Source: Urechis unicinctus
Lineage: Eukaryota > Annelida > Polychaeta > Xenopneusta > Urechidae
NCBI GenBank assembly: GCA_034190875.2
Contig: CM067348.1
Span: 24,436,058-24,500,057 of the forward strand
Length of the DNA: 64,000 nucleotides
Reading direction: 5' to 3'
Below, one piece after another: positions 19,990 through 55,183 of the stretch. The notes under the pieces were generated by a model. It was not told where the DNA came from. It did no database searches and was given only the letters and a program-made list of their open reading frames with translations. The position numbers and the translations under genes are program-made. Numbering within the stretch: the stretch's first letter is position 1; each line of letters starts with the position of its first letter.

Positions 19990-20774
19990 CAAAAGCATGA
20001 AAAATGTCAAGGCTCTTGATCAACGCCTATGTTTGGTTATATCAACGGAAAACCAACACTTGACAACGAAAGTGAACAAATGGCAAATGAGGTTTAATAC
20101 CTCAAAGTGCAAATGTATGCACCTAGGTTACAATAACCCATGTCATGCATATACGATGACTGACAGTCAGCGGAAAACCTCCGTGCTTGAAGTTTCTACT
20201 TGTGAAAAGGACCTTGGGGACCTTGGCTGACTTTCTCGTCTCATGTGAGTGAAGCAGTCGCCAAGGCTAACAGAATCCTTGGGATGATCAGAAGATCATA
20301 TGTTTATCTGGATAACGAGTCTCTGAAATTGTTATTCCAGGCCCTGGTGAGGCCTCATTTGGAATACAGCAACATTATCTGGTACCCTCTCTACAAGAAA
20401 GATGTCATAGCGATTGAGCAGGTTCAACGGCGAGCCACAAGGCTCCTCCCACACTTGAGAGACCTTCCTTCCCTCACATATTGCCGCTGTCGGGGGGATA
20501 TGATCGAGGTGTACAAATACCTTCATGGAGTGTACAGTGTGGATTATGTCTCCATACTGCCGATAGATGACAGAACCACGAGGGTCACTCGTGGCCATTC
20601 CCTGAAACTGAGCAAAAGGAGACAATCGTCTAGCCTTGAGGGGAAACTTCTTCTCCTTCCGTGTGGTGAACATCTGGAATCGCCTACCTAACTCTGTGGT
20701 TTCTGCACCATCAGTGAACAGCTTCAAATCTAGACTCGACGACTTGTGGGAAAGCAAGCGATACGCTACTGATC
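19990..20774 (+). pseudogene. LINE (CR1/L2/Jockey-like) reverse transcriptase C-terminus, first part
   Basis: This is a 5'-truncated LINE. Its thumb and C-terminal region reads KWQMRFNTSKCKCMHLGYNN, STCEKDLG, then AVAKANRILGMIRRSY, LVRPHLEYSNIIWYP and IEQVQRRATRL, then RGDMIEVYKYLHG. These are the standard late blocks of CR1/L2/Jockey-type RTs. There is a frameshift near 20225, a short deletion near 20465-20485 (the ERL block is missing) and another frameshift near 20640. Past the last, the frame reads NIWNRLPNSVVSAPSVNSFK and RLDDLWESKRYATD up to 20774, where a transposon splits it. The rest lies at 32256-32353. Confidence 0.85.
20769..20774. repeat. Left target-site duplication CTGATC
   Basis: CTGATC directly precedes the left inverted repeat. 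The same six bases directly follow the right inverted repeat at 32256-32261. Removing the element and one copy restores the LINE reading frame. Confidence 0.9.
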
Positions 20775-21138
20775 TCACAGGGATTCGTATCAGAAGGTAG
20801 GTTGAAGATAGAAATATATATATATTTATCGATCTATGACCCCCGATAGATCATAGAACGAAGAGAGAAAGATTTTTATAATCGATCCAATGACCCCGCT
20901 ACTACTAATAAACACAAGGGAAACAACGACCGGGCGCATCCCCTGTGGAAAACTTCCGAAAATTACTCCAAACCCCATGTCATCTCACCCCAAACAGCTC
21001 GATTCGGTGGGGAAACGTCCATATTTATTCTCAACACACTCACTCGCTGTGGGCAGACCCTCTCAACGCATATTTGACCACTTTTTCGCAACTTCAGCCA
21101 GAACTACAGAGCTCGGTTTACGGAAGTCGCCATTTGCC
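20775..21138 (+). repeat. Left terminal inverted repeat (364 bp)
   Basis: This matches the reverse complement of 31892-32255 over its whole length. By eye there are only two differences, near 20943-20947 (TGTGG against GGTAG). It contains a GATCTAT/ATAGATC hairpin near 20830-20851. Open frames within the repeat are not genes. It ends at GCCATTTGCC. Confidence 0.9.
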
Positions 21139-21757
21139 CCGCGGCAAATTTGGTTCCGTGCTCTAATTGGCCAGGAGTTTTAAGCACGAACGACAGCCAT
21201 GATGGAATCGGTGAGCGTGTTTTTCTTTTGTTCCTTTTATGCCTTTTCATAACTTGCATATAGTTGTGGTTTTTCCTTGTAAGTGTATCGAATGTAATGA
21301 ATAGTGACCTGTTTGAGTACATGAAACCTGAGTTTTATAAAATTAAAATAATGCTCTAATCTGGATCGAGAAGTGGGCTATGAGCGATAATAAGGAAACT
21401 GTGTAACAAAAACAGCCCCCCATGCTATACCGACTAGGCGAGTTCCGCCATCTTGGATCGCTAAACCGGAAATCGGTGGTCGAGGAACGCGATTTTGACA
21501 GCTGTGAAATAGGTGGAAGACAGGTCGTCGTGTGGTAGATGTAATGTCTTTGATTTCGGGTGTGTCGCGGTTTGGAAGGATTAAAGGACGCATTTCGTAG
21601 ATGTCGATACCTTTGATCATGCAGAAAGTCAATGCATTGAGGCTGGCCTCTCGCTCACGGTTTATTATGATCTGCTCAAATGCCAACACCGCTCGTAACC
21701 ATGCACGCCACTGGGTATATAAAGGGGTTAATCTCAATAATTATGGTATATATCACA

Positions 21758-22696
21758 ATGGTGAATCACTGCTGCGTTGTCGATTGCATCACAAGCTCAA
21801 GAACTACACACCAGGATGGCTCCAAACCTAAATTCTTCAAATTCCCGGGGCAGATTCGCTACCCAGGTACAAGGCATGGGTCAAGGCAGTTAGCAGGAAG
21901 AACTTAGCTATCAAACCACACACTGTTGTTTGTTCCAAGCATTTTGTAGAAGGTATGCCAACACTTCAACATCCAACACCATGCCTTAACATGGGTTACC
22001 CATGGAAGATACTTAAGACAAGGTGACTGTTTGATTTATTGTAATACATCAGTAAAGCTATGTCATACAGCTAAAATCTACTTCTGTTTGAGAATCTTAA
22101 TTTGAATGTTATACTTCCAGGTTCAGATTGTCCTCTCGCCGTGAATATGAATCTAGGCTCAAGTTGTCAAAGCAGTTACCCCCTGGTAAGAGTCCCATAC
22201 AAAATGATGAAATATTGTTTAAATGCAATAGTTGTTATTTCACCTGTAGTACCTTAGTTTTATTGCATCATTTCTCGGGTTTTTACACTCAGTAAGATGT
22301 GGGGTGGTCGGGCTTCAGACAAGCACTTGTAAAAAACTCAGGTAAGGGAGTATCATTGGTCTTGTGTAACTTAACTTGTTGCTTGCCTGTATAATATGTA
22401 CATATACCCGTTTATATCATTTGCTTTTCAAAATGTTTACAGGAGCAGAGTTCTTTGATCAGTTGGACCCACACGACCAGATTATGGCAGACCGGGGTTT
22501 TGACATTGCAGATCTTCTGGCCCCCAGATGTGTCACGCTCAATATACCCCCATTCACCAAAGGAAAGACACAGCTTAGCCAATGTGAAGTCGAACGCCAC
22601 AGAAAAGTGTCCAGCCTCAGGATTCACGTTGAGAGCAATAGAGCGAATAAAGGACTTATGAGTGTAGCAGGCTGTTTTCTCCCCGAGTCAGATTAG
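21758..22696 (+). pseudogene. THAP-domain DDE transposase of the ISL2EU-like element, internally deleted
   Basis: The start is ATG 21758. The THAP zinc finger reads HCCVVDC (C..C), KFFKFP, then after a frameshift near 21845 RYKAWVKAVSRKN and VVCSKHFVEG (C..H). Exon 1 ends near 22022 (AAG ACA AG|GTGACT). A short exon at about 22122-22183 reads RLSSRREYESRLKLSKQLPP. The catalytic domain is represented by MWGGRASDKHL near 22297-22330, with a 1-nt loss after it, and a final exon, about 22441-22696, with AEFFDQLDPHDQIMADRGFD, LNIPPFTKGKTQLS and SSLRIHVESN. The D of ADRGFD and the E of HVE fit the second and third catalytic residues of the IS5-like DDE fold. The HTH and the first aspartate region are missing. 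It is not functional. Confidence 0.7.
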
Positions 22697-23074
22697 CCAG
22701 CTTGACAATATTATGACAATTGTTTGTGCCAAAACAAATCTCCCTCCTTTAGTACAAGATAGTGACCTTGAAACTTGACTTGATAACAGTACGCAATATA
22801 TGGAAACAATGTAATTTATTACATCATTTGCCCCCTGTAAATATTTCACTATGATTACACATTTTATGAAAATAAACAATATTTTGTAATGTAAGCGAGA
22901 CAGTTGTTCTATGCATACCGTCATAGTATGGAAGAAAAAAACATTACCTTGACTACAAACAAATAATTAGTAACACACAATAAGTTTAGCCATGTGCCAA
23001 AATGTATGAATTAAATGTACAAGCTGATAGATTATCAGTATTAAAAAAGGATTTTCCATGCAATGCACATCTCC

Positions 23075-24723
23075 CCTAAAGTTTTGTGGACTGGTACAAC
23101 CGGTCTGACTGGGCAGGGTTGATGCTGGACTTGATGGCAATGAGGTCCACATCAGCATTGTCAGCAATGACCAAAGCAATTGTTTGGGCAGGGGCTACAT
23201 ACTCAGATGTCTCTGATATGACTACATGACTTGAAACATCAGCTGAAGAACACAGACAAATATCAGTTAATTAGATTATTCAAGAAAGGAGATGCATAAA
23301 TATAATAGTTCCATGAGATCTGATTTGCTGTAACCATAAGTGTACCAACTCACCAATGGAATTCTGTTGGTGTCCAACTGGGTCGATGGCAGTTAGAATG
23401 ACTGCATTCGGTGCAGCCTCAGCTACAATATCCCAGAGGGATTCTTCATCTCTTTAGGTTGCTTGTTACGCTTCCCATACTGGGGCATTGAGAAGAAGCC
23501 GATATTCTGCAGCTTCATGGGGACAAGATCTGTCCTAAAGGGACAAACAACAAATGAATAACTATGAATCATAAAAGTTATTTATATAAATATTAATGAC
23601 AGTCATTGGCATGATGTCCACGTCACACAAATGTGGTAACTATGACTGCTTGCTTCCCCAAGTCCAGCCATGCAGTAGCACCTTGCTCCCTTGACCCATC
23701 CTTCTTGGTGAATGAGGGCCCACACATCATACGGGGCGATTGTGGTGTGCTGAGATGGACGGACAGCTGTTGCCACAAACTCAAACTTGCTTGCCGTCAT
23801 GTGAAGACCAAGCTGGTCTACCCAGCCACAGTAAACATAGTTGTATGCATCCAAGGCCTTGAATGCACCCAAAGAATTCTTGTTGTAAATGACTGAAGCA
23901 ATAATTCATTAGCAGTGTAAGTGAATTAAAGGGCCATTTCATACTACAGGTTAATAGTAAGTAGTGTTGAAATATGAACAAACATTTCTAAGCAAGTATG
24001 ACTGATAAGAAATCAAAAGCAACTAAACAAAAAAAAATACCTGGTGTGTCAATCAATTAGTTGTAGAGGTTACCATACTGAAATTGTGGGACGACCAGTT
24101 TGTTAGACTTTGTGGATGGGGAAGTGAGGCTTCACCATCAAGCTGAAGAAGACAGTCCAGAGGCTGTTTGGCAAGTTGCTGGGTTTCAATTTCTGGAACA
24201 AATGTGTCTTCAGGATAATACAATTTTTAAAAATAAATACATTGACCACAACAAAAATCAAGGGCCAGAGCAATACCAAATGTGACACAATATCCCAATT
24301 ATTTGATTAATTTGGATAAATCACCACCCAAGATTACAAAATGTTGATTAGCAATTGATTTCTTTACCGAGTTAATCATACGCATATTGCAGTATAACAA
24401 AATAAAATCAATACAAATAACATTGGGTCTAAAAAAAACACAAAATAGAAGATACATATCTGTATAATAACTCCATACCTGTGGGGTTTTTGGGAAGGTT
24501 GAGTTTCCATTTCCAAGCCCAAAAGGCCAAAGTCGCAAGCTCCTGCTTTGATTCTTCAACTTTCAGTCGTATTTCTCCCAAATAATGCACAGTATATGAA
24601 CTAAATGAGGCTCTAGTACTTTCTGTCATCTCTGAACTACATCGCACGGCACTTTCGGGTGATATATCGCAATTGGCGAGCTGAATCTCACGAAGCGCAA
24701 AAACGTTCCGCCGGGGAGAAGCC
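23075..24723 (-). pseudogene. SWIM-finger protein of the ISL2EU-like element, lacking the YqaJ nuclease part
   Basis: Read on the minus strand, exon 1 starts at ATG 24723 (MASPRRNVFALREIQL) and ends near 24483. Further exons are at about 24212-24070, 23897-23603, 23539-23355 and 23247-23075. The third carries LDAYNYVYCGWVDQLGL, VRPSQHTTIAPYDVWALIHQ and CYCMAGLGEASSHSYHIC. This is a SWIM finger (CxC...CxH) whose third Cys is Ser. The fourth exon needs a 1-nt correction (IGFFSMPQYGKRNKQP). The fifth ends SSINPAQSDRLYQSTKL and then a stop, just where a YqaJ-like nuclease domain would be expected to begin in this family. The exon limits are by eye. Confidence 0.6.
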
Positions 24724-27700
24724 ATTACACACCAATGTTTTGATTTTGTAGACCACCGATTTCCGGTGGGCCTTCGGCGTCAGGTGTCATGGCCGACAAC
24801 TCGCATACTGGGTATTTACTTTCGCCTGTTCACCTCTTAAGCCCCAACGCAGACCCACGAAATCCATTACGTTGAACAATAAAAACATCCACGTTATCTA
24901 AGCATCAATGGAAACAAAGAAAAGCAGTTTACAGAAATTGATGTTTTGAATCACATTTCTGTCTGTGTTTGCAGTTAAATGATGATCAAAAAAGGGCAGT
25001 TGACCTTGCTGTGTCTGGACACAACCTTGCGATTCTGGGTGCTGCTGGAACTGGCAAGAGTCACGTGATTAGGGTTATCAGTGAGTTGTTGGGAGAACGT
25101 AAGACAATTGCTGTTACTGCTTCCACTGGCATGGCAGCTCTTCATCTGAAGGGACTGAAGGCCCGAACCATCCACAGCTACACAGGTATTTTGGATGGCC
25201 GATACAAAGGAGTAGAGTTACAGCGAAGGCTTCTCTTTGATGAGAGCTGTAAAGAAGTGCGGAGGCGCATAGAAGCCACTGATGTGCTGATCATAGATGA
25301 AGCATCTATGCTCAGTGGTCAGACATTTTATTCAATTGAATTAGCGCTTCGTGTGTGCAAGGACGAGACAAAGTTGTTTGATGGAACACAGATCATCGCA
25401 GTGTTAGACCCTCGCCAGCTACCACCTGTCCCTGAACCTTTGTATGGTGATGAGGGCATCCCATGCTTTAAGAGCAAATCATGGAAGTTAGGGATCCCAC
25501 ATAGGATTACGCTCTTCCAGAATCACCGCCAGCAAGACCCAGGCTTTGTTAAAATGGTTGAAGAGGTCTTTGCTGGTGCACCGTCTAAGGAAACGAGTGA
25601 ACAATTAAAGTGTTTGTCCAGACCGCTATCTCTTCATAAGCAAAGAGAAGCTGTCATACTGTGTGCTGACAATTTCATGGTAGAACGGTACAATAGGTCA
25701 GCTCTTGACAAGCTACCGGGTGAAATGACCCTTTTTTAGTCTCGATACAATGGTGATGCCAAATTAATGAACAAATTCAGAGCACCTAAGGTGTTGGCCC
25801 TAAAGCCAGGTTGCAGAGTTATGTTGCTCCACAACATCAAACAGGACAAGGGACTGGTGAATGGGGCACTTGGGAAAGTTATGTCTTTTTCAAAGGACAA
25901 AGTAATGGTAAAATTTGGATTGGTTGTCCATGCCATAGTACCATTCATGTTTACGAGGCACAATCCTGAAACACAGCAGACTCTTGCATCGAGGGAACAA
26001 CTGCCCCTTACCCTAGCATATGCCATCACCTACCACAAGGCACAGGGACAAGAGCTGGCAGCTGTTGAAGTGGACACAAGAGGGATATCTAAACCAGGTA
26101 GGAATGGCTCTTTCCATCTGGCAAACAATAAATAGATTAAATAGGATCTGGGTGAAAATGTAATATATATTTTTTCATGCAAATTATTATTTTTCATGAA
26201 AATCATTAAGGAGAGCAGCTGTTAGAATTATTTAGTTGTTGACAATGTATATATAATGTAGAGATAATATGATGACCTGTAATTCTCTGTCCGCTAAATT
26301 ATTTTTTTCAATTATCTTCTGCAGGACTTCTAGGTGTTGGGATATCAAGAGTTCGGGATTTTGACAGTTTGCGGGTCATCAAATACAACACATCACAGTG
26401 TATTTCCCCTCCTGAAATGATACGAGAATTCATTAAAGAACCAGGGCAACCCCCTCAGGAAGCCATGAGCTGTTGCTCACATATTCCTCCAGCAGCAGTG
26501 GAAGCTTCCTCAGAAGGCCCTCAAGTTGATGAATATGGGACTTCAGACTCAGACCTGGCAGAAATGAGTGACGGTGCAGTGCAAGTGGCAGAGGAGCTAC
26601 AAGGATGTTCCAGTGAGTTGCTGGATATCCCAGAATCTGCTATGCCCGGTAGCAAGCTCCTACACCAAGCTAAATGTAGTTCACCTATGACCGTCAGGCA
26701 GAAGTTCATCAATACAGCTATTGAGGCTCTGGATGGAGATAAATTGGAGGCATTCCGTCAATCAGCGTATCGTGTTGCGAGGAAGATTGTTCCTCTCGAC
26801 AAAACCTCACTGAAGACATCCCAAAAAGGTGAAGCATTACGCCTCCTGCACTTGTACAAGACAAGCGATGACTATAAATCTTCAGTGACAACTCTCTTTC
26901 AATCTCCGCAGAATCTTCGAATTCATCATCAAATAGCATCACGCATCCTTTTGGGCATTTTTGAGGATATATTGCAAGAACGTCTCCAAAATATTGACGA
27001 ACAAGAAAACACCTTGCCTGAATCTATCAAACTAAAACTCGAGAACCTCAACCAACATGGCATCGCTTCAGCAAAGCTCAGGTATGTTGGTGGCTCTGTT
27101 GTGGCTAGACTCTCATTTCGCACCAAGAAGCTCATCAAAAGTCACCTCTATGACAAAAGAGACAACATACTCAAGCTCTGTGATCAGCGTTTAGCTCTGT
27201 ATGAGAGTATGGAATTGGATCCTAATCAAAAATCCCACTATGCAGACACACTGACAGAAATTGAGCATCTGAGAAGAGGCAAGCTCTTCATCCCTGATGA
27301 TGCCACTTACAAGTTTTTTTGAGATTTAGAAAAAAAAAAGACTTCAACTCCATACCTTTTCAAACTTGACAAAATTTAAAGAAAATCTTCCCCAAGAGAT
27401 ATATAAACAGCTGACCACAAATGAAGAATTAAGAGATTCTTTCACTGCATTATGCTCTGTTGAACAGCAACCACACGAAGAGCTTACACCTGAAAAGCAT
27501 ATTTCTGTGCTCCTTAGTTCAGTAGTGGACAAGGCTTGCACCATCACTGAGGTTAGGCAAGACATAGTATTGCTCTATCTGAAAACTGGAAACAAACAGT
27601 TTCGAAGTGAAGTAATGACCGGCCAGAAAGTCAAGAAAAAAGAAGCCCACAGACGAAGTGTTGTGAAAAGAGTTGCTGCAAAGGAACGGAAGCAGTCCAA

Positions 27701-28095
27701 GCAAAATAAGGCAAAATCGGTTGAAGTTGATCTGTGGACAGGGGACATTGATGACAATACCTGTGCTGAATGTGGCAATTCATACAAAGAGAATGCAGAC
27801 TGGATATGCTGTGATGGTTGTGAAGCCTGGTTTGAAAGAGTCTGTGCCGGCATTCCTGATGAAGAACAGTGGGTGGAACTATCAAGTGGAGACTGTCCTT
27901 GGTTCTGTCAACAGTGCCTTTCACGCTTTACTAACTAGGTAAGAATTTGTTTCTCATACTGTTAAGGTGCTGAGCTGAAATCAAGCATTACCTGGTGAAA
28001 TAACTAACCATGTAGTTGTATGGGACATAAGTTTATTCAAAACATTGAATCACCTGTCTAAAACAAAGCATATTGACAAGAAGGAAATTGTGGGA

Positions 28096-31000
28096 TCACT
28101 TAGATTTCTTTGCAGGAGGTTGTGCTACACCACACAACTGAACTTTGTCACAAGAGCTGAATGCATTAGACTTCTTGCTAATTGGTGCTTGACTGAGCAC
28201 AATGGTATTTATACCATACATATACTGAAAATGAGTGGGGTTGTCATTAGCCCCATGACACATGGCTCTCTGTTGACAAAAAAAGTTTTCACAAATATCT
28301 GAATTGATTCTGCCAGGTACTATTGATACATTAGAATCTTTGAAATGATTTTTCACCAGTTGACAAAATCCATGAAGAACAGACATTGTGTCATCTCGTG
28401 TCTCCTGAGTCATTAAGGCGTTTCGCTTTTCTGCAGTAGACAATTTTGATTTGTTGACAGCATCTTCCCATGCAGTAAACCACTCCGCTACCTGTTGTAG
28501 ACTGTTAAGTCGTGGGTCATCTGGTCCGAGTATGGGCCTCATGTCCCCAAATATTTCAATAACAACACTCACTTTCTCAATGAGGGCAATACTGCCAGCC
28601 AAATAATCCCCCATTTTTCCAAGGAACCGCTGGTATTCCTGCAGAAACAATGTATTAATGTTAGAAAGTTTTATTTTTCTATACTTTTTCTATATCATCT
28701 AAAAAATTGTCAGATCAAGAGTTACCTGCATAAGATGAAGCATTTTCCTTCCCAACACATCTTCTGCCAATTTATTCCTCATCTTGTCGCGCTGGTTTGG
28801 TTGCATGTGTTCTGTAGTGAGATTTTGAAACACTGGCAATGTGTTGTGCTGCTGGTCCCATCTGTATGCATCTAGCCAATGTGACCACTTGATCACAAGT
28901 GTGCTGTTCAGATGCAGTGGTCTTAGAAGGCGCTTGTGAAATTGCAGTGTTCCACTTGACAGAATGTTGTTGCGAATCTTTTTGTGGTTGTGCTGCGGAC
29001 AACAAAAAGTAACAGACATTCAGTGGAAGTTATGTGTCCAATGACACATGTCTAAAATTTGTGGTGATTTGCAGGTCATTTAGCCAGCCATCTCAGATTC
29101 ACACCTTTGGGTCCATGATTGTGGATATCTTGTCATCCGGGTTAATCATACTGCACCATGAAAACTTCAGAGACCTTGCATTGTTCAATGGGAATAGAAT
29201 CTTCATCAACTGTCGGTTAGCTACAGCCCCATCCTGACAGCAAAACTCCACCTAAGCAGGTAAATTAATTTAATTAAGGTGCCAGGGATCTGTGTGAGAG
29301 AGTAAATTAATTTCTTAATTAAGAACCCAGATCAATTTTTATTACTCTATAGTTAAATATAAAAGAAATTCAAACTCCAGACAAAACTTACTTTGAACTC
29401 CCATTCCATCAACTTGTCCACTGCCCTCCATAGCATGCAGTAGAGTTCAGGAGCTTGCGCTTCACTTGTGGCAAAGTGAGCAAATGGGAAACGGAAGCCG
29501 GAATACCCAACGAAGATGAACTGCAGAATGTGAGTAGCTAGCTTGAATTCATCTTTATCTGGAGGAGCACAATAATCAAGATAACTGCACAGAGTAATAT
29601 GTCATTGCTTATTATTTGTTATAATCTGTCACAAAGAAAAATAATCTAATGCTTATATGTGCATGTAATAAATATTGAATTAATATTGTAGAATGTACCT
29701 CGGCGTAAGGCTGACAGGGTATCGGCTTCAGGGGTCATACTGACAAGTCCTCTAAAGTAACTGTCACAGCCCTTGTGAACCACATGCAGATCCTCCTAAA
29801 TACATGACATTATAACTTTATTGCACTAATGCCTTATTTAAGATGTTAGACATCAAGATATGATGTCAGGCACATAGTGAAAAGGAGCATGGTAGGCTTC
29901 CTAGTATATTAATAATAAGACAAAGTTAACAGCATTTTTCTGTTACCACTTTTTACATCAATGAAAAATAACCCAGCATGTCCTTTCTTTTAAAAAGATG
30001 TACTATGTGGGTATCAAGTGAAAAACCAAATGTTCTTGTAGTCAAAATTTATACAATGTATAACCTCATCTAATAACTGTTACATTTCTGCTTTTTTCCA
30101 TACCTGAATGCTCATTTCATCGAACATGATGCCTCCAGCTCGAAGATCACCTGTCAACCCTTGCCTGTCAGCTTCCTGATGCATCCAACGGAGAGATTCA
30201 TCATGGACTCCTGGCTTTTGGGTCAAACAGTTCTTATACTGTTTCAATGTGTTGGGGTGCGGCAAGATCAGTGTCCTCATTGATCGCCACAACTCATAAG
30301 TCTTTGGGGAGCAACACCACCAAGCCAAACATACTCGTATCATTCTGGAAAAGACAAATCATGATCCAATGGTGTGAATCTGATGATCATTTTACACTTG
30401 CAGGGCCTGTGCAAAGGCTAAGTAGAATCAAGAGTCAACTACCCTTTTTGTGTAGTATGAAACTTACCTAGAACTCCATCTATGCTGACGAGGGTCAGGC
30501 ACTGAAATGTTCCTTCCCTGCTCCTGAATTAGCAAAGCACACTCCTCTGGAAAGTTGAGCTTTTGCAATGTTACCATGAGGTCCGCATCTTCATGTTTGC
30601 TTGGTGGACTAGATGATGGAAGAGTTACTGCCTCACACTTCGCTTGAGCAGCATTTGATGGTATTCGCAAGCAGGAAATGCATGTTTGATTGATTGACGA
30701 ATGAGAAACCAGTCCTTTGCACTTTCCTGTGTGACTTGATTTTTTGTAATAATTTTCATCACCTAGAATTGTCCAAACGGTGTTGCCTCTGTTTTGTGGA
30801 TGAATTTTGCCATGACAAAATTTCAGACTGTCAATTGCAGTTATCACAGCCTGAACTTTGGAAGGAACAGATTCAACGTTGCTCTTTATTTGAAGGTGCT
30901 CTAGATCGATATTATGTCCGAAAACTTTGCACTCGATCTTAGCCATAGAATCACTGGTAGTTACTGTAACTTCTTTTGTTGCTCTGATGTCATTTCGCCT

Positions 31001-31320
31001 GTCCAAAGATACCAATGAATAAAGATAGCGCCCTCTTTTGTCACCAGCTGGCTATACTTTGCTTTTAGAACACTTGTGACACTTCCAGTGCTTACATTGT
31101 CTGTAAGTAACTCCACACATCTATATGCTTTCCCAAGTTTTTTATAATCAGATGGTGAACGCTTCATGCATGTCTGTAACTTGGGATAAACTCCATGCAT
31201 GGCCTTAGAAAAAAGATTGCATGGAACGGGGTTACTAACTGTATGAACATAAGTGGAATAGAACTCGCCGACAAAAGTAGACACTTTCTTGTCATCCGTT
31301 CCACTTGTATGTGTGGTTAT
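28096..31320 (-). pseudogene. P-element-like transposase, at least seven exons, one 1-nt deletion
   Basis: The exons on the minus strand are 31320-30468, 30344-30104, 29795-29699, 29558-29392, 29251-29105, 28992-28726 and 28638-28096. Every donor/acceptor pair is GT-AG and all six junctions keep the frame, for about 770 residues. Blocks in order are SLVSLDRRNDIRATKEVTV, AGGIMFDEMSIQ (an acidic catalytic-site candidate), ILQFIFVGYSGFRFPFAHF, CCQDGAVANRQL, DPKHNHKKIRNNILSSG, then GRINSDICENFFCQQRAMC and GANDNPTHFQYMYGINTIVL. The RNase H-like order, the HxxKKIRNNI block and the NSD..ENFF C-terminus resemble P-element/THAP9-type transposases. The 3' six exons have no stop. In the first listed exon a single base is missing near 31018. 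The N-terminal exon was not resolved (a candidate PFDNWLELFPK exon lies near 31440-31408), and no THAP finger is visible. The stop is at 28096-28098. Confidence 0.75.
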
Positions 31321-31891
31321 CCTGCAAAAATGAAAGAAAAAATATTGATTTTCCCAAATTTTAAACTTAAGTAACATTCCCTTGGTTTGTCATCAATGGA
31401 CCCCAGTATTATACCTTTGGAAACAGTTCCAACCAATTATCAAAAGGCTGTAAAATTGTTAAGTAATTAATTTTAGAGATTTGATAAGATGTCATCTAAA
31501 TCACAAATAGCCATAGTTAACTTACCATGTTACTACTCCTGTTTCTTTTCTTTATTTAGCGAATCTTCCATTCTTGGGTTATTAAAAACAAGTAAAATAT
31601 CGCATGTGCTATCACCCCAAAAAAATTTAATCTGGCGCCAACAAAATCTAGCATCTGTTGCTATAGCAACTTCAAGTCTCCTCAACTGAACGATGAAAAA
31701 ATTACCAAACGTAGTTTTTTTTATCATATTTAAACTTCAGTTGGTGTTAAAATATTTTTAGATATCATTGTAATAGATTCAATGAGATCAAACGTTCATT
31801 AAATGCATTAAATTAATAAAAACGTTCGACTATTTTCGACTTTATAACGGACCAATCAGAAAGCGAATTCGCATTCACTTCTGAATTCTTC

Positions 31892-32255
31892 GGCAAATGG
31901 CGACTTCCGTAAACCGAGCTCTGTAGTTCTGGCTGAAGTTGCGAAAAAGTGGTCAAATATGCGTTGAGAGGGTCTGCCCACAGCGAGTGAGTGTGTTGAG
32001 AATAAATATGGACGTTTCCCCACCGAATCGAGCTGTTTGGGGTGAGATGACATGGGGTTTGGAGTAATTTTCGGAAGTTTTCTACCGGGGATGCGCCCGG
32101 TCGTTGTTTCCCTTGTGTTTATTAGTAGTAGCGGGGTCATTGGATCGATTATAAAAATCTTTCTCTCTTCGTTCTATGATCTATCGGGGGTCATAGATCG
32201 ATAAATATATATATATTTCTATCTTCAACCTACCTTCTGATACGAATCCCTGTGA
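31892..32255 (-). repeat. Right terminal inverted repeat (364 bp)
   Basis: This is the reverse complement of 20775-21138, with the same length and two differences seen by eye. The outer end is GAATCCCTGTGA, followed by CTGATC. The open frame across it is the mirror of the one in the left repeat and is not a gene. Confidence 0.9.
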
Positions 32256-32353
32256 CTGATCTGGACTTGGGATTATCTCGACGTATGCGCATACCAGCTA
32301 CAGAAATGTATGCTCCAAGAGTTGAAGACCAGCCGACAGGCGACACCGCCTAA
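32256..32353 (+). pseudogene. LINE reverse transcriptase C-terminus, second part
   Basis: After CTGATC (the right target duplication, 32256-32261) the LINE frame resumes as DLGLSRRMRIPATEMYAPRV and ends in GDTA and TAA at 32351-32353. It is in frame with ...ESKRYATDL on the far side of the transposon. LINE 3' untranslated sequence with a GATGATGATAATGATGATGA run follows. Confidence 0.75.
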
Positions 32354-37906: not shown

Positions 37907-40042
37907 ATTTTCATCTGGTCACAAAATATCAAAAATATCATTACATCTTACTTTACAACCCCGTCCCGACTACATCTGACTGTAACCTACCAGTTATATA
38001 CCCTGGTGGCTCAAGTTGCCACCAAGCTCCGGACTCGAACGTTCTACTTCTATATACCACTACCATGCCCTGCACTCCAGGCTGCTGCATGACTCAAGAT
38101 GATCAGGATATCTGGCCAAATCATAGACAGGTAGAGGGACTTAATATTTAAAATTCACCTCAATACTGGCATCGGAGCTCCACACATCTCTCTCCTTTCT
38201 AAATTCTAGTATTTGAGATACCATAACTTTCCTTTACAATCTACGCGTGTTCTCATCACAAGTGTGCGTCTTTACACCGGCGTTCACCATACGGCGATCG
38301 TCCCGGAGGGCAAGAGAACAATAACATATGGGTACCCGGGTTTATCATGGCTACATAATGCCACAAACGCATCTGACGAAATTTCTTTATAGCCAAATGA
38401 TTGTAAAGTCAGTCTCGAAAAAAAACCCGGGTAATAGTTATTTAGACTAAGAGCTAAATCAGTGACAACGCGTTATTGACAAAACATGGTAAGTATGAAT
38501 GTCATACGAGTTCCCCGGTAACATCTTGGCCGACTTATGCAAGAGCCGATTAGTTGCAATCACTCACCACCACTGTACGTGTTATGACGGTATTTTCAAA
38601 ATTGCCATATCAAGGCCCTTATTCCACACGTAAATTATTCAGACCTTTGACCCCTTTTAATGATTCTTTACAAACTCTATCCCTTTTATCTATCTTATGG
38701 TAACAACAACATTTTTAATCCTTTTGATCTAGAGCAATCCCCACCATTAATCCGAATTGACACTATTACCGGGTGGCTACTATCTAATTACAATGGACCT
38801 GGTGGGATTGGTCTCAGCTTGCTAATCTCCAGATGCCGCCCGTGTTCCACCTGGGGTCCCCAGCCCCGAACCAATCACTCACTTAAACTCCAACCAGGTG
38901 ACCAGTTTTGACCAATGACGATAGTCCATGCGTCTGATTGGGGCAGTGGATGAGCTCCAGGGTGGGGATAAAATGGACATTGGGGGCATGGGGAGAAGCT
39001 TGCCAGCAGAGACGAAGACTGTGCGAGAGGCAATAAACTATAATTATCCAGATAATACAAGTCTTCGAGTTTGCACAACAACCAACTTCTAAGAAACTAC
39101 AAAAACACTCTTTGAACAAGAATCCGGGTACAAAAAGACACTTATAATATACGCCATGCATCACACGTTGTGAACATAGTGGTGGGCAGCAACTGGTGAC
39201 TTATCATCGTGATATGTATTTATTTTCCTTGTTTGATGCTTACTTGTTTTTTTAATAATAGGATCACATGCATTCACTATTTGGAGAAACACAAAGACGC
39301 TTAAACAATATATTGCATTGTGTCGAGCTCTCGGTTCGGTTCGAGAGGTCAACCCATACATCAGCTTGCTAGTCAAAGCCAGATCGCTACATATATTCTA
39401 CAACCTCCCCAATGTGTTTTTAGTGACACGATCTTATTGCTCTGTGCCCATCAACGAACGGTCTTTTAAAATCTGTGTCAATTGAATAACACCAAATGTC
39501 ACTAAATAAATAATGTCACCATCATGAAACATGTCATTTCCTGTAATGGAGATTGTTGGGAATCGCGAGGTCAAGAGCGTGCTAATTAAAAAACAGTTAG
39601 ATCTAACTTTCAACCCCTTTTTCGCCGCAGTTTAACCAAGGTTTTCTATTGGATATGACATTTTCCATATTGGTTACACAGTAAGGTGGTTTCTTTATTT
39701 ATGTTTTGGTGTCTTTAGGCACTTGAGATTGAGAGAGTCTGTAGTAGCAAAGACGAAACTAACAGCATTAATAAGCATCCCTAAAATATATATGCTGTGG
39801 GCGTAGGCGTGCAAATGACTAAGCTATGTCACTAATGTATTTTGTGGAAAATATAATGATGATATTAATTTCGCTAAAGAAAGTGAGCTACATCATTATT
39901 ATCTTTTTATCATTTCTTCAGGTAGATAAATCACCAAAGTTCGACAAGAGCATCCAGATGATAGAGGCAGATGCATTAACAAACAGTTACCTACGACCAG
40001 GTGGCCACTAAGTCAATGATGCAGGGAAATTATACAATCACC
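37907..40042. other. Unassigned intergenic sequence
   Basis: No gene is seen. TGGTGGC/GCCACCA near 38003-38023 is a short dyad. Confidence 0.4.
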
Positions 40043-40213
40043 AACAGGTCATACAACATACATACATCATACAGACATACAGACATACATACATACATAC
40101 ATAGATACTTGTGGGACAAGACAAACAGTAGGACATACATACATACATACAGACATACAGACATACATACATACATACAGACATACAGACAGACAGGTGA
40201 CATACACTACAGT

Positions 40214-40256
<43 letters not shown>

Positions 40257-40257
40257 T

Positions 40258-40296
<39 letters not shown>

Positions 40297-40857
40297 TACA
40301 GACAGACAGACAGACAGACATACAGACAGACATACAGACAGGACATTATAATACATACATACATACATACATACATACATACAGACATACAGACAGACAG
40401 ACATACATACAGACATACATACATACATACATACATACATACATACATACATACATACAGACATACATACATACATACATACATACATACATACATACAT
40501 ACATACATACATACATACATACATACACATACATACATACATACATACATACATACATACATACATACACATACATATACATACATACATACATACATAC
40601 ATACATACATACATACATACATACATACATACATACATACATACATACATACATACATACATACATACATACATACATACATACATACATACATACATAC
40701 ATACATACATACATACATACATACATACATACATACATACATACATACATACATACATACATACATACATACATACATACATACATACACATACATACAC
40801 ATACATACATACATACATACATACATACATACATACATACATACATACATACATACA
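40043..40857. repeat. Long ACAT / AGAC tetranucleotide microsatellite
   Basis: About 800 bp of (ACAT)n is mixed with (ACAG)n blocks at about 40205-40340. Because the period is four and stop codons are absent in most frames, long open frames (Thr-His-Ile-Tyr or Met-Tyr-Val-Cys repeats) appear on both strands. They are not genes. Confidence 0.95.
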
Positions 40858-52440: not shown

Positions 52441-53765
52441 TGGCATCATCGGCATCATCGGCATTATCGGCATCGGAAACCAGATATAAATACTGCAGCT
52501 CCTAATATTTGGTCCAGCAGCGCAAGATTTGAGTGCAAATGGCCTTATTAGTTCAAAATTAGTTTAAAACACGGATAGGTAAGATTCGTGTGCTACATAT
52601 CTAAGAATGGCGAAAGAGATGAAATTGGATGGGAAACCGCGAATAAATGTTCGCGAGTCTAAGTGCAAGTGGTATATTGCAACATGTTGAAGCTCTTGTT
52701 TAAACAATGCATGGTCAAGATGGGTTTACTGCCTCTTACATTTCCACACAAAGTGGGAATAATCACAGGTGCTCACTCTTAACCGAAACATATAAGTTAA
52801 GTATAAACCGTGTAGGTTATTTGTTGTAAGACTAAAAGAGTAAATATTGATCAAATATCGACTCCAGTTGAAAAGAACACTACACGTAGATAAGGTATGA
52901 AGTTTTGCATTCATATTGTACCTGATAATTATCAGATGTCCTATTTCTTCAATTGACTGATGCCCAACCAGGGCGAAAACAGCGTCTTTAGCACTCTGCC
53001 AAGGCTACATTGGATAGCAACATCATAACATATAACCATTTTATAGTTATCATTTCGTTTCTGGTTTGAAATGAACTTCTATTGTGCTTTAAGTACGTCA
53101 CAAACCCATGTAGGATATATTCACCAGTTTAGAGGGAATAACTGCGCAAAACAATGCGTGGGTCATTCTATAGCCCATCCATGCAACCCTCTATTAATTC
53201 ACCGTGTAATTATAATTCGTCCATCTTGTGTAAACATATACAAACGCATTGCCTATCTTACAAGCATAGCTTTGGGTGAACTTAAACTACTATTATCCAC
53301 AGATGGGTCTTGCAAACTTGGATGGTCACCATCACTCACAACCTCTGTCTGTAACAAACCTGGCCTTGAAACGCCCATTCCGTAAATTGCCTCTTTGCTA
53401 GACTAACACCAGCTGCAGTAATAACGCACAAGGCAGCCAGGCAACCAAGAACTTCAATGAGTTACTCGCCTAATGTGGCAACATCCGCCTGGTAATCGAT
53501 CACCTGACTGATGTAACGCCTTTAACATGAATGCAGTAGTCCTGTTAACAAGAATCAATTGGTGACTGAGTCATAGCAGCATGCATTTGACATTTTTGGC
53601 TTCTATCAGGTAAAAGCAGATAAACGTGGCTTAATGCAAGTATAACATTCGAACGAGACACGCATTGTCCTGTCATCAAATACATAGCGGTTAATATTAA
53701 GTACCATTGCAGCTAACGTTGCCCTAGTTATAGACTGTGCAGTCGCATATGGATATAATAGATAA

Positions 53766-55183
53766 GACTGACGCACCATGTTGTAATCGATTAAACTGCC
53801 ACACCATGTCCTAATCGATTAGACTGCCACACTATGTCCTAATCGATTAGACTGCCACACTATGTCCTAATCGATTACACTGCCACACCATGTCCTAATC
53901 GGTTAAACTGCCACACCATGTCCTAATCGATTAGACTGCCACACTATGTCCTAATCGATTACACTGCCACACCATGTCCTAATCGGTTAAACTGCCACAA
54001 CATGTCCTAATCGATTAGCCTGCCACACTATGTCCTAATCGATTAAACTGCCACACCATGTCCTAATCGATTAAACTGCCACACAATGTCCTAATCGATT
54101 AGACTGCCACACTATGTCCTAATCGATTAAACTGCCACACCATGTCCTAATCGATTAAACTGCCACACCATGTTGTAATCGATTAAACTGCCACACCATG
54201 TCCTAATCGATTAGACTGCCACACTATGTCCTAATCGATTAGACTGCCACACTATGTCCTAATCGATTACACTGCCACACCATGTCCTAATCGGTTAAAC
54301 TGCCACACCATGTCCTAATCGATTAGACTGCCACACTATGTCCTAATCGATTAGACTGCCACACTATGTCCTAATCGATTACACTGCCACACCATGTCCT
54401 AATCGGTTAAACTGCCACACCATGTCCTAATCGACTGCCACACTATGTCCTAATCGATTACACTGCCACACCATGTCCTAATCGTCTGCCACAACATAAT
54501 CGATTAGCCTATGTCCTACATATGTCCTAATCGATTAAACTGCCACACCATGTCCTAATCGATTAAACTGCCACACACCTAATCGATTAAACTCACTAAT
54601 CGATTACACTGCCACACTATGTCCTAATCGATTAAACTGCCACACCATGTCCTAATCGATTAGACTGCCACACTATGTCCTAATCGATTACACTGCCACA
54701 CTATGTCCTAATAGATTAGACTGTCACACTATGTCCTAATCGATTACACTGCCACACTATGTCCTAATAGATTAGACTGTCACACTATGTCCTAATCGAT
54801 TACACTGCCACACTATGTCCTAATCGATTAGACTGCCACACTATGTCCTAATCGACTAGACTGCCACACTATGTCCTAATCGATTAGACTGCCACACCAT
54901 GTCCTAATCGATTAGACTGCCACACCATGTCCTAATCAACTAGACTGCCACACCATGTCCTAATCGATTAGACTGTCACACTATGTCCTAATCGATTACA
55001 CTGCCACACTATGTCCTAATCGATTAGACTGCCACACTATGTCCTAATCGACTAGACTGCCACACTATGTCCTAATCGATTAGACTGCCACACCATGTCC
55101 TAATCGATTAGACTGCCACACCATGTCCTAATCAACTAGACTGCCACACCATGTCCTAATCGATTAGACTGCCACACTATGTC
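53766..55183. repeat. 28-bp satellite array, about 50 monomers
   Basis: The monomer consists of CCTAATCGATTAGACTGCC followed by ACACTATGT. Variants at three sites (TTAGAC, TTAAAC, TTACAC; ATCGAT or ATCGGT; CTATG or CCATG) travel together. A three-monomer order (TTAGAC-CTATG, TTACAC-CCATG, CGGTTAAAC-CCATG) recurs at least four times before about 54480, giving an 84-bp higher-order unit. A disordered patch lies at about 54430-54600. It is not a CRISPR: there are no spacers. Confidence 0.95.

Follow-up and report, generated by a model that had tools for sequence, protein, structure and literature searches.

An 11.5-kb DNA transposon of Urechis unicinctus with a P-type transposase gene and a convergent PIF1 helicase gene that ends in a PHD-like finger

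Structure of the element and its target site

The 64,000-nucleotide stretch of Urechis unicinctus DNA analysed here (the window: assembly GCA_034190875.2, contig CM067348.1, positions 24,436,058 to 24,500,057 of the forward strand) contains a DNA transposon of 11,479 bp with a G+C content of 0.41 at window positions 20776-32254. Two convergent spliced genes lie between its near-identical terminal inverted repeats (TIRs) and inside one exact target duplication. The plus-strand gene encodes a PIF1 helicase with a C-terminal PHD-like finger, the minus-strand gene a transposase of the P type. Their stop codons are 157 bp apart, and the genes start 60 bp (helicase) and 363 bp (transposase) inward of their respective TIRs. 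An earlier reading, made without database searches (the sequence-only reading), had described two such genes between inverted ends, and this anatomy is borne out.

The inverted arms, 20775-21138 and 31892-32255, are 364 nt each and 99% complementary, with 10,753 nt between them. They differ at 2 of 364 positions (20944 and 20947). They are the sole inverted pair of at least 60 nt found in the window, and no 15-mer of the left TIR occurs elsewhere in it. The borders read ...GCTACTGATC T CACAGGG ... CCCTGTG A CTGATCTGG..., and the outer pair T20775/A32255 can be assigned either to the TIRs, leaving a 6-bp duplication CTGATC, or to the target, giving the 8-bp duplication ACTGATCT at 20768-20775 and 32255-32262 and TIRs of 363 bp that start with CACAGGG. 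The 6-bp and 8-bp readings are equally exact, and the sequence alone cannot choose between them, since both leave the same empty site once the flanks are joined. The 8-bp duplication is preferred here, as would be expected of a member of the P transposase family. The 364-bp ends and 6-bp duplication proposed from the sequence-only reading therefore describe one of two exact solutions; under the other, the TIRs are one base pair shorter.

20768..20775, left copy of the target duplication, ACTGATCT (CTGATC as 6 bp)
20776..21138, plus strand, left TIR, 363 bp, starts CACAGGG
31892..32254, minus strand, right TIR, 363 bp, 2 mismatches to the left TIR
32255..32262, right copy of the target duplication, ACTGATCT

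When the element is removed, the empty site stays open in one frame (...SFKSRLDDLWESKRYATDLDLGLSRR...). The target (20206-20774 and 32263 onwards) resembles the 3' part of a reverse transcriptase ORF, which, judging by eye, we take to be the C-terminus of a non-LTR reverse transcriptase. The 161-aa ORF upstream of the insertion had no Pfam match, and no 16-mer of the upstream target part recurs elsewhere in the window.

The heptamer of the recombination signal sequence (RSS) is CACAGTG. The TIR start, CACAGGG (20776-20782), resembles both this heptamer and the TIR consensus of RAG-like transposons, given as CACT (PMC7204232), a likeness that may be trivial.

The transposase gene

The transposase gene runs on the minus strand from 31528 to 28096 in nine exons and encodes about 785 aa once two frameshifts, at about 31300 and 31040 in the 5' part of the third exon, are read through. 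The catalytic exons are open.

31526..31528, minus strand, exon 1, ATG alone, predicted
31415..31447, minus strand, exon 2, predicted
30468..31321, minus strand, exon 3, RFX-like domain at about 31295-31085, conserved four-Cys region, frameshifts at about 31300 and 31040
30104..30344, minus strand, exon 4, helix-turn-helix region and first catalytic Asp (P D230)
29699..29795, minus strand, exon 5
29392..29558, minus strand, exon 6, N-terminal part of the RNase H domain (PF21787)
29105..29251, minus strand, exon 7, second catalytic Asp (P D303, by position)
28726..28992, minus strand, exon 8, insertion resembling the GTP-binding domain
28096..28638, minus strand, exon 9, catalytic Glu and nearby Asp (P E531, D528) and stop; AATAAA at 28037, minus strand

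The N-terminal domain of the TNP-like RNase H (PF21787) was matched by a single exon with E 1.4e-5 and by the read-through protein with E 8.2e-12. A profile search had been suggested in the sequence-only reading as the way to place the transposase. The profile of the family matched the P transposase of Drosophila along three stretches, with E values of 7.2e-10 and 1.7e-10, and P residues D230, D528 and E531 aligned with a conserved D, D and E of the family. The equivalent of D303 was assigned by its position in the family alignment. In alignment A1 the residues corresponding to D230, D528 and E531 are present in 23/23 members and that of D303 in 21/23; in alignment A3, from which the window protein was left out, the counts for D230, D303, D528 and E531 are 45/45, 43/45, 44/45 and 45/45. 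With a P-type RNase H core that carries D230, D303 and E531, the family belongs to the P transposase superfamily. The two D303 exceptions in A1 are the annotated Priapulus caudatus proteins P0006 and P0038, which have Gly or Asn at the second catalytic Asp and, to judge from this change, are probably dead or repurposed copies.

The fold alignment spans model residues 258-761 and passes through the putative GTP-binding insertion, for which 4/23 members have a match to the Pfam domain. Eight GTP-contact residues are named for the P transposase in the literature, and four of them could be aligned: D528 is kept, while K385, K400 and V401 face N573, R588 and N589 of the window protein.

The P/THAP9-like blocks seen in the sequence-only reading hold for this catalytic core, as profile, fold and catalytic residues agree. 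They do not extend to a THAP domain, which was found in none of the 23 members scanned (Pfam, E up to 1). The N-terminus of the family has instead the fold of an RFX-type winged helix, an assignment made by fold comparison, which leaves room for other families. Four cysteines that follow the RFX-like domain and precede the catalytic core (C183, C215, C228 and C231) are kept in 23/23 sequences of A1 and 45/45 of A3; they form a probable zinc site.

The helicase gene

The plus-strand gene encodes a PIF1 helicase, a long middle region and the C-terminal PHD-like finger, in this order. It is interrupted by an in-frame TAG at 25737-25739 and by a frameshift after 27319. The sequence-only reading mentions neither these two defects nor the frameshifts of the transposase gene, nor the transposon nested in the first helicase intron (described below).

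21199..21210, plus strand, exon 1 (prediction based on a GT donor in phase), ATG, 4 codons, 60 bp inward of the left TIR
24975..26097, plus strand, exon 2, encodes the PIF1 core and the 2B domain and contains the in-frame TAG (25737-25739)
26325..27321, plus strand, exon 3, final helicase motif and part of the middle region; the frame is lost at the exon end
27330..27938, plus strand, C-terminal part in a different frame, end of the middle region and PHD-like finger

A PIF1 core (PF05970, E 9.1e-25) and a Pif1 2B domain (E 8.1e-11) identify the protein as a PIF1 helicase. No named fold was recognised in the middle region, which was not modelled separately. The C-terminal finger matched the Pfam PHD profile with E 1.8e-4 and 21.9 bits, slightly below the Pfam cut-off of 24. 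PHD fingers have C4HC3 zinc ligands. In the finger described here seven cysteines are kept and a Glu replaces the His; because of this replacement, and because the matches are weak in both Pfam and the Protein Data Bank (PDB), we call it PHD-like. P0096, an uninterrupted environmental protein with the same Glu, matches the helicase-PHD protein end to end with 40% identity. The fusion of a PIF1 helicase to a PHD-like finger, as first noticed in the sequence-only reading, is thus confirmed by domain matches and by a full-length relative.

In PDB comparisons the helicase core scored 183 bits against human Pif1 and 61 bits against the Helitron helicase (Helraiser). As the Helitron match is the weaker, derivation of the helicase from a Helitron was rejected. 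Identity of the whole element with a Helitron was also rejected in view of the long TIRs and the duplication, and P0096 contains no Helitron domain (Pfam, E up to 1).

Relatives of the two proteins

The protein database search returned 95 relatives of the transposase. Named sources are Priapulus, Ptychodera, Littorina, Mytilus, Dreissena, Capitella, Tegillarca, Pinctada, Haliotis, Pecten and Mya, and one relative is labelled as a bacterial metagenome-assembled genome. In the phylogenetic tree the closest transposases are two proteins of Capitella teleta, which form a trio with the window protein (SH-aLRT 99). Profile A1 gave 116 pattern stretches in genome contigs and 48 in viral contigs, none of which was confirmed. 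The 80 + 80 loci kept with helicase alignment A2 (genome and viral contigs) matched at 23-37%, none of them past query residue 461, and so represent PIF1 only.

A nested transposon and other repeats

The first intron of the helicase gene harbours a separate transposon, which is a later guest in the element and not part of the gene pair.

21465..24767 (approximately), nested transposon with 17-bp inverted ends ACCGGAAATCGGTGGTC and remains of THAP and DDE_Tnp_4 domains

On the plus strand it contains a frameshifted THAP domain at 21760 (E 4.8e-11) and a DDE_Tnp_4 fragment (E 2.2e-10). No target duplication was recognised at 21465-24767. Its minus-strand ORFs, which lack a Pfam match, may represent a second gene of this guest. 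Elsewhere in the window there are long tandem arrays with 8-bp-type and 28-bp units at 40040-40800 and 53616-54900.

Do the helicase and the transposase form one unit?

We think it probable that the element is a cut-and-paste transposon of the P superfamily, from a lineage in which an RFX-type winged helix replaces THAP, and that the PIF1-PHD helicase is its second, convergent gene and works broadly as outlined in the next section. In favour of a single unit, both genes share one pair of near-identical TIRs and one exact duplication, they converge with 157 bp between their stops, they start 60 and 363 bp from the TIRs, and the helicase by itself is not bracketed by any exact inverted 12-mer pair. 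A number of observations weigh against this. The two genes are known together from one copy only, the window proteins are broken and had to be read through for the searches, and the structure models are those of the relatives P0022 and P0096. P0096 itself is known as a protein without genomic context. The sequence similarity behind the RFX assignment is weak (best E 0.04 in PDB; Pfam matches in 4/23 members, the best at 0.0045 and below the cut-off), and the best X-box-like RFX site in the TIR has 3 mismatches, a result equalled in 300/300 shuffles. Chromatin reading by the PHD-like finger is doubtful, since both proteins have a Glu where the His would stand, and neither of the two forms of poly(A) signal sought was present within 460 bp past the helicase stop. 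Finally, the helicase-PHD architecture has a single relative, P0096, compared with the 95 of the transposase. This last count is softened by the way in which it was obtained: the search scored the 7994 candidates that shared most words with the query within a length window, and a database query limited to the C-terminal half of the protein gave no match, failing to return even P0096.

The helicase-PHD gene might be a passenger, captured from the host or from another source by one P-like copy and without any role in transposition. We regard this as unlikely, but it is the rival to be taken most seriously. The single joint copy, the imbalance between 95 relatives and one, the broken helicase and a core closer to cellular Pif1 than to the Helitron helicase would all fit a passenger. 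On the other hand, the gene is spliced, begins close to the TIR and fills the space from the left TIR to the 3' end of the transposase gene, and its uninterrupted environmental relative is conserved along the full length. Moreover the transposase is likewise broken, and an origin from a host gene is compatible with a later role as a helper. Much less probable is a nest of two transposons in which the helicase is part of a second element, such as a Helitron or Polinton relic. A different transposon does sit in the first intron of the gene, but no exact inverted 12-mers bracket the helicase alone; one 12-mer pair (27746/31387) came from the test on the transposase side and sits in coding sequence. 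P0096 shows neither Helitron Rep nor Polinton genes in Pfam, and in PDB it scores a third as high against Helraiser as against Pif1. Least probable of all, by a little, is an element of another superfamily with a helper helicase (AcademH or KolobokH) that is merely P-like. In the literature consulted, these are the helicase-carrying DNA transposons described from animals or fungi. The transposase core of the present element is of the P type, and further differences are given in the last section.

Returning to the P-superfamily explanation, the 95 relatives of the transposase and the single one of the helicase suggest that the helicase is a helper gene of one lineage of the transposase family and not of the whole family. 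That the pair moves together beyond the present copy is something we infer. In a bolder version, a two-component lineage of the P superfamily would extend over several animal phyla, with an RFX-type transposase and a PIF1-PHD helicase inherited together. The helicase would then be needed to copy the long element back into the donor gap and to position it in active chromatin, and the convergent RAG1L-RAG2L (PHD) pair would be a parallel case of independent origin. Because of the same imbalance of relatives we advance this version only tentatively.

Proposed mechanism and significance

The 363-bp TIRs would hold the promoter of each gene as well as the binding sites of the transposase, whose RFX-like domain would bind the element ends. 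Its P-type RNase H core (DDE) would cut and insert the element with an 8-bp stagger, as follows from the family. The helicase would act after excision, when repair synthesis over the donor gap would restore the 11.5-kb element, and the PHD finger might keep it on active chromatin, uncertain though this is given the changed zinc ligand.

Pif1 helicases aid DNA synthesis at displacement loops. The gap left by P excision is repaired by homologous recombination or end joining, and the Bloom helicase homologue is reported to take part in Drosophila. For these reasons we lean towards donor-gap repair as the role of the helicase, with slightly less than even confidence. The next-best candidate, the opening of strands at the cut ends, is considerably weaker, and chromatin targeting seems improbable, to the same degree as some other role or none.

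If the proposal is correct, the P superfamily, whose donor-gap repair uses a host helicase, has gained a helper helicase, and it becomes testable whether transposons bring their own repair factors. The replacement of THAP by an RFX-type domain points to an exchange of DNA-binding modules among P-type transposases; this point rests on many proteins and is independent of the helicase. In its convergent gene order and its PHD-bearing partner the element also parallels RAG-like transposons, the source of antibody gene assembly in vertebrates.

Comparison with known systems

The published systems are compared here as the literature describes them. P elements and THAP9 (Drosophila P, zebrafish Pdre2) share with the element the RNase H catalytic core, the position of the insertion domain, a duplication readable as 8 bp and TIRs starting with CA. 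In the sequence-only reading a 6-bp duplication had been contrasted with the 8 bp of P elements, a contrast that falls away since the equally exact 8-bp reading agrees with P. Short TIRs had been named as a further contrast. The TIRs of P elements and THAP9 are indeed 13 or 31 bp, compared with 363 bp here, but long TIRs do occur in the P superfamily, in Galileo. The departure from P elements is nevertheless greater than had been noted: besides the second gene and the size of 11.5 kb, the transposase family lacks THAP (23/23 members scanned) and has an RFX-type winged helix in its place. Galileo of Drosophila, compared by description only, has, like the element, a P-superfamily transposase and long TIRs; the TIRs of Galileo are internally repetitive, and the description at hand mentions no helicase.

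RAG-like transposons (RAG1L-RAG2L, ProtoRAG) likewise have a convergent pair between TIRs, a DDE transposase and a partner ending in PHD (PMC7204232). They differ in their 5-bp duplication and kelch partner, compared with 8 or 6 bp and a PIF1 partner here. KolobokH and Kolobok-1_CCri combine a DDE transposon with a helper helicase, encoded on the complementary strand in Kolobok-1_CCri (PMC9587614). By description both are set apart by a RecQ helicase and a Kolobok transposase, in place of the PIF1 helicase with PHD-like finger and the P-type transposase. AcademH, a DNA transposon of animals or fungi, likewise encodes a helicase and is again set apart by description, with an Academ transposase and duplications of 9-10 bp. 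Full-text searches of one open-access library (most subscription journals and Repbase lie outside its scope) found no description of a P-superfamily element with PIF1 or of an RFX-type P transposase, in keeping with the impression in the sequence-only reading that no family with this combination had been described. Helper helicases as such are already known from KolobokH and AcademH; the pairing of a P-superfamily transposase with a PIF1-PHD helicase, as seen in this one copy, is a new variation.
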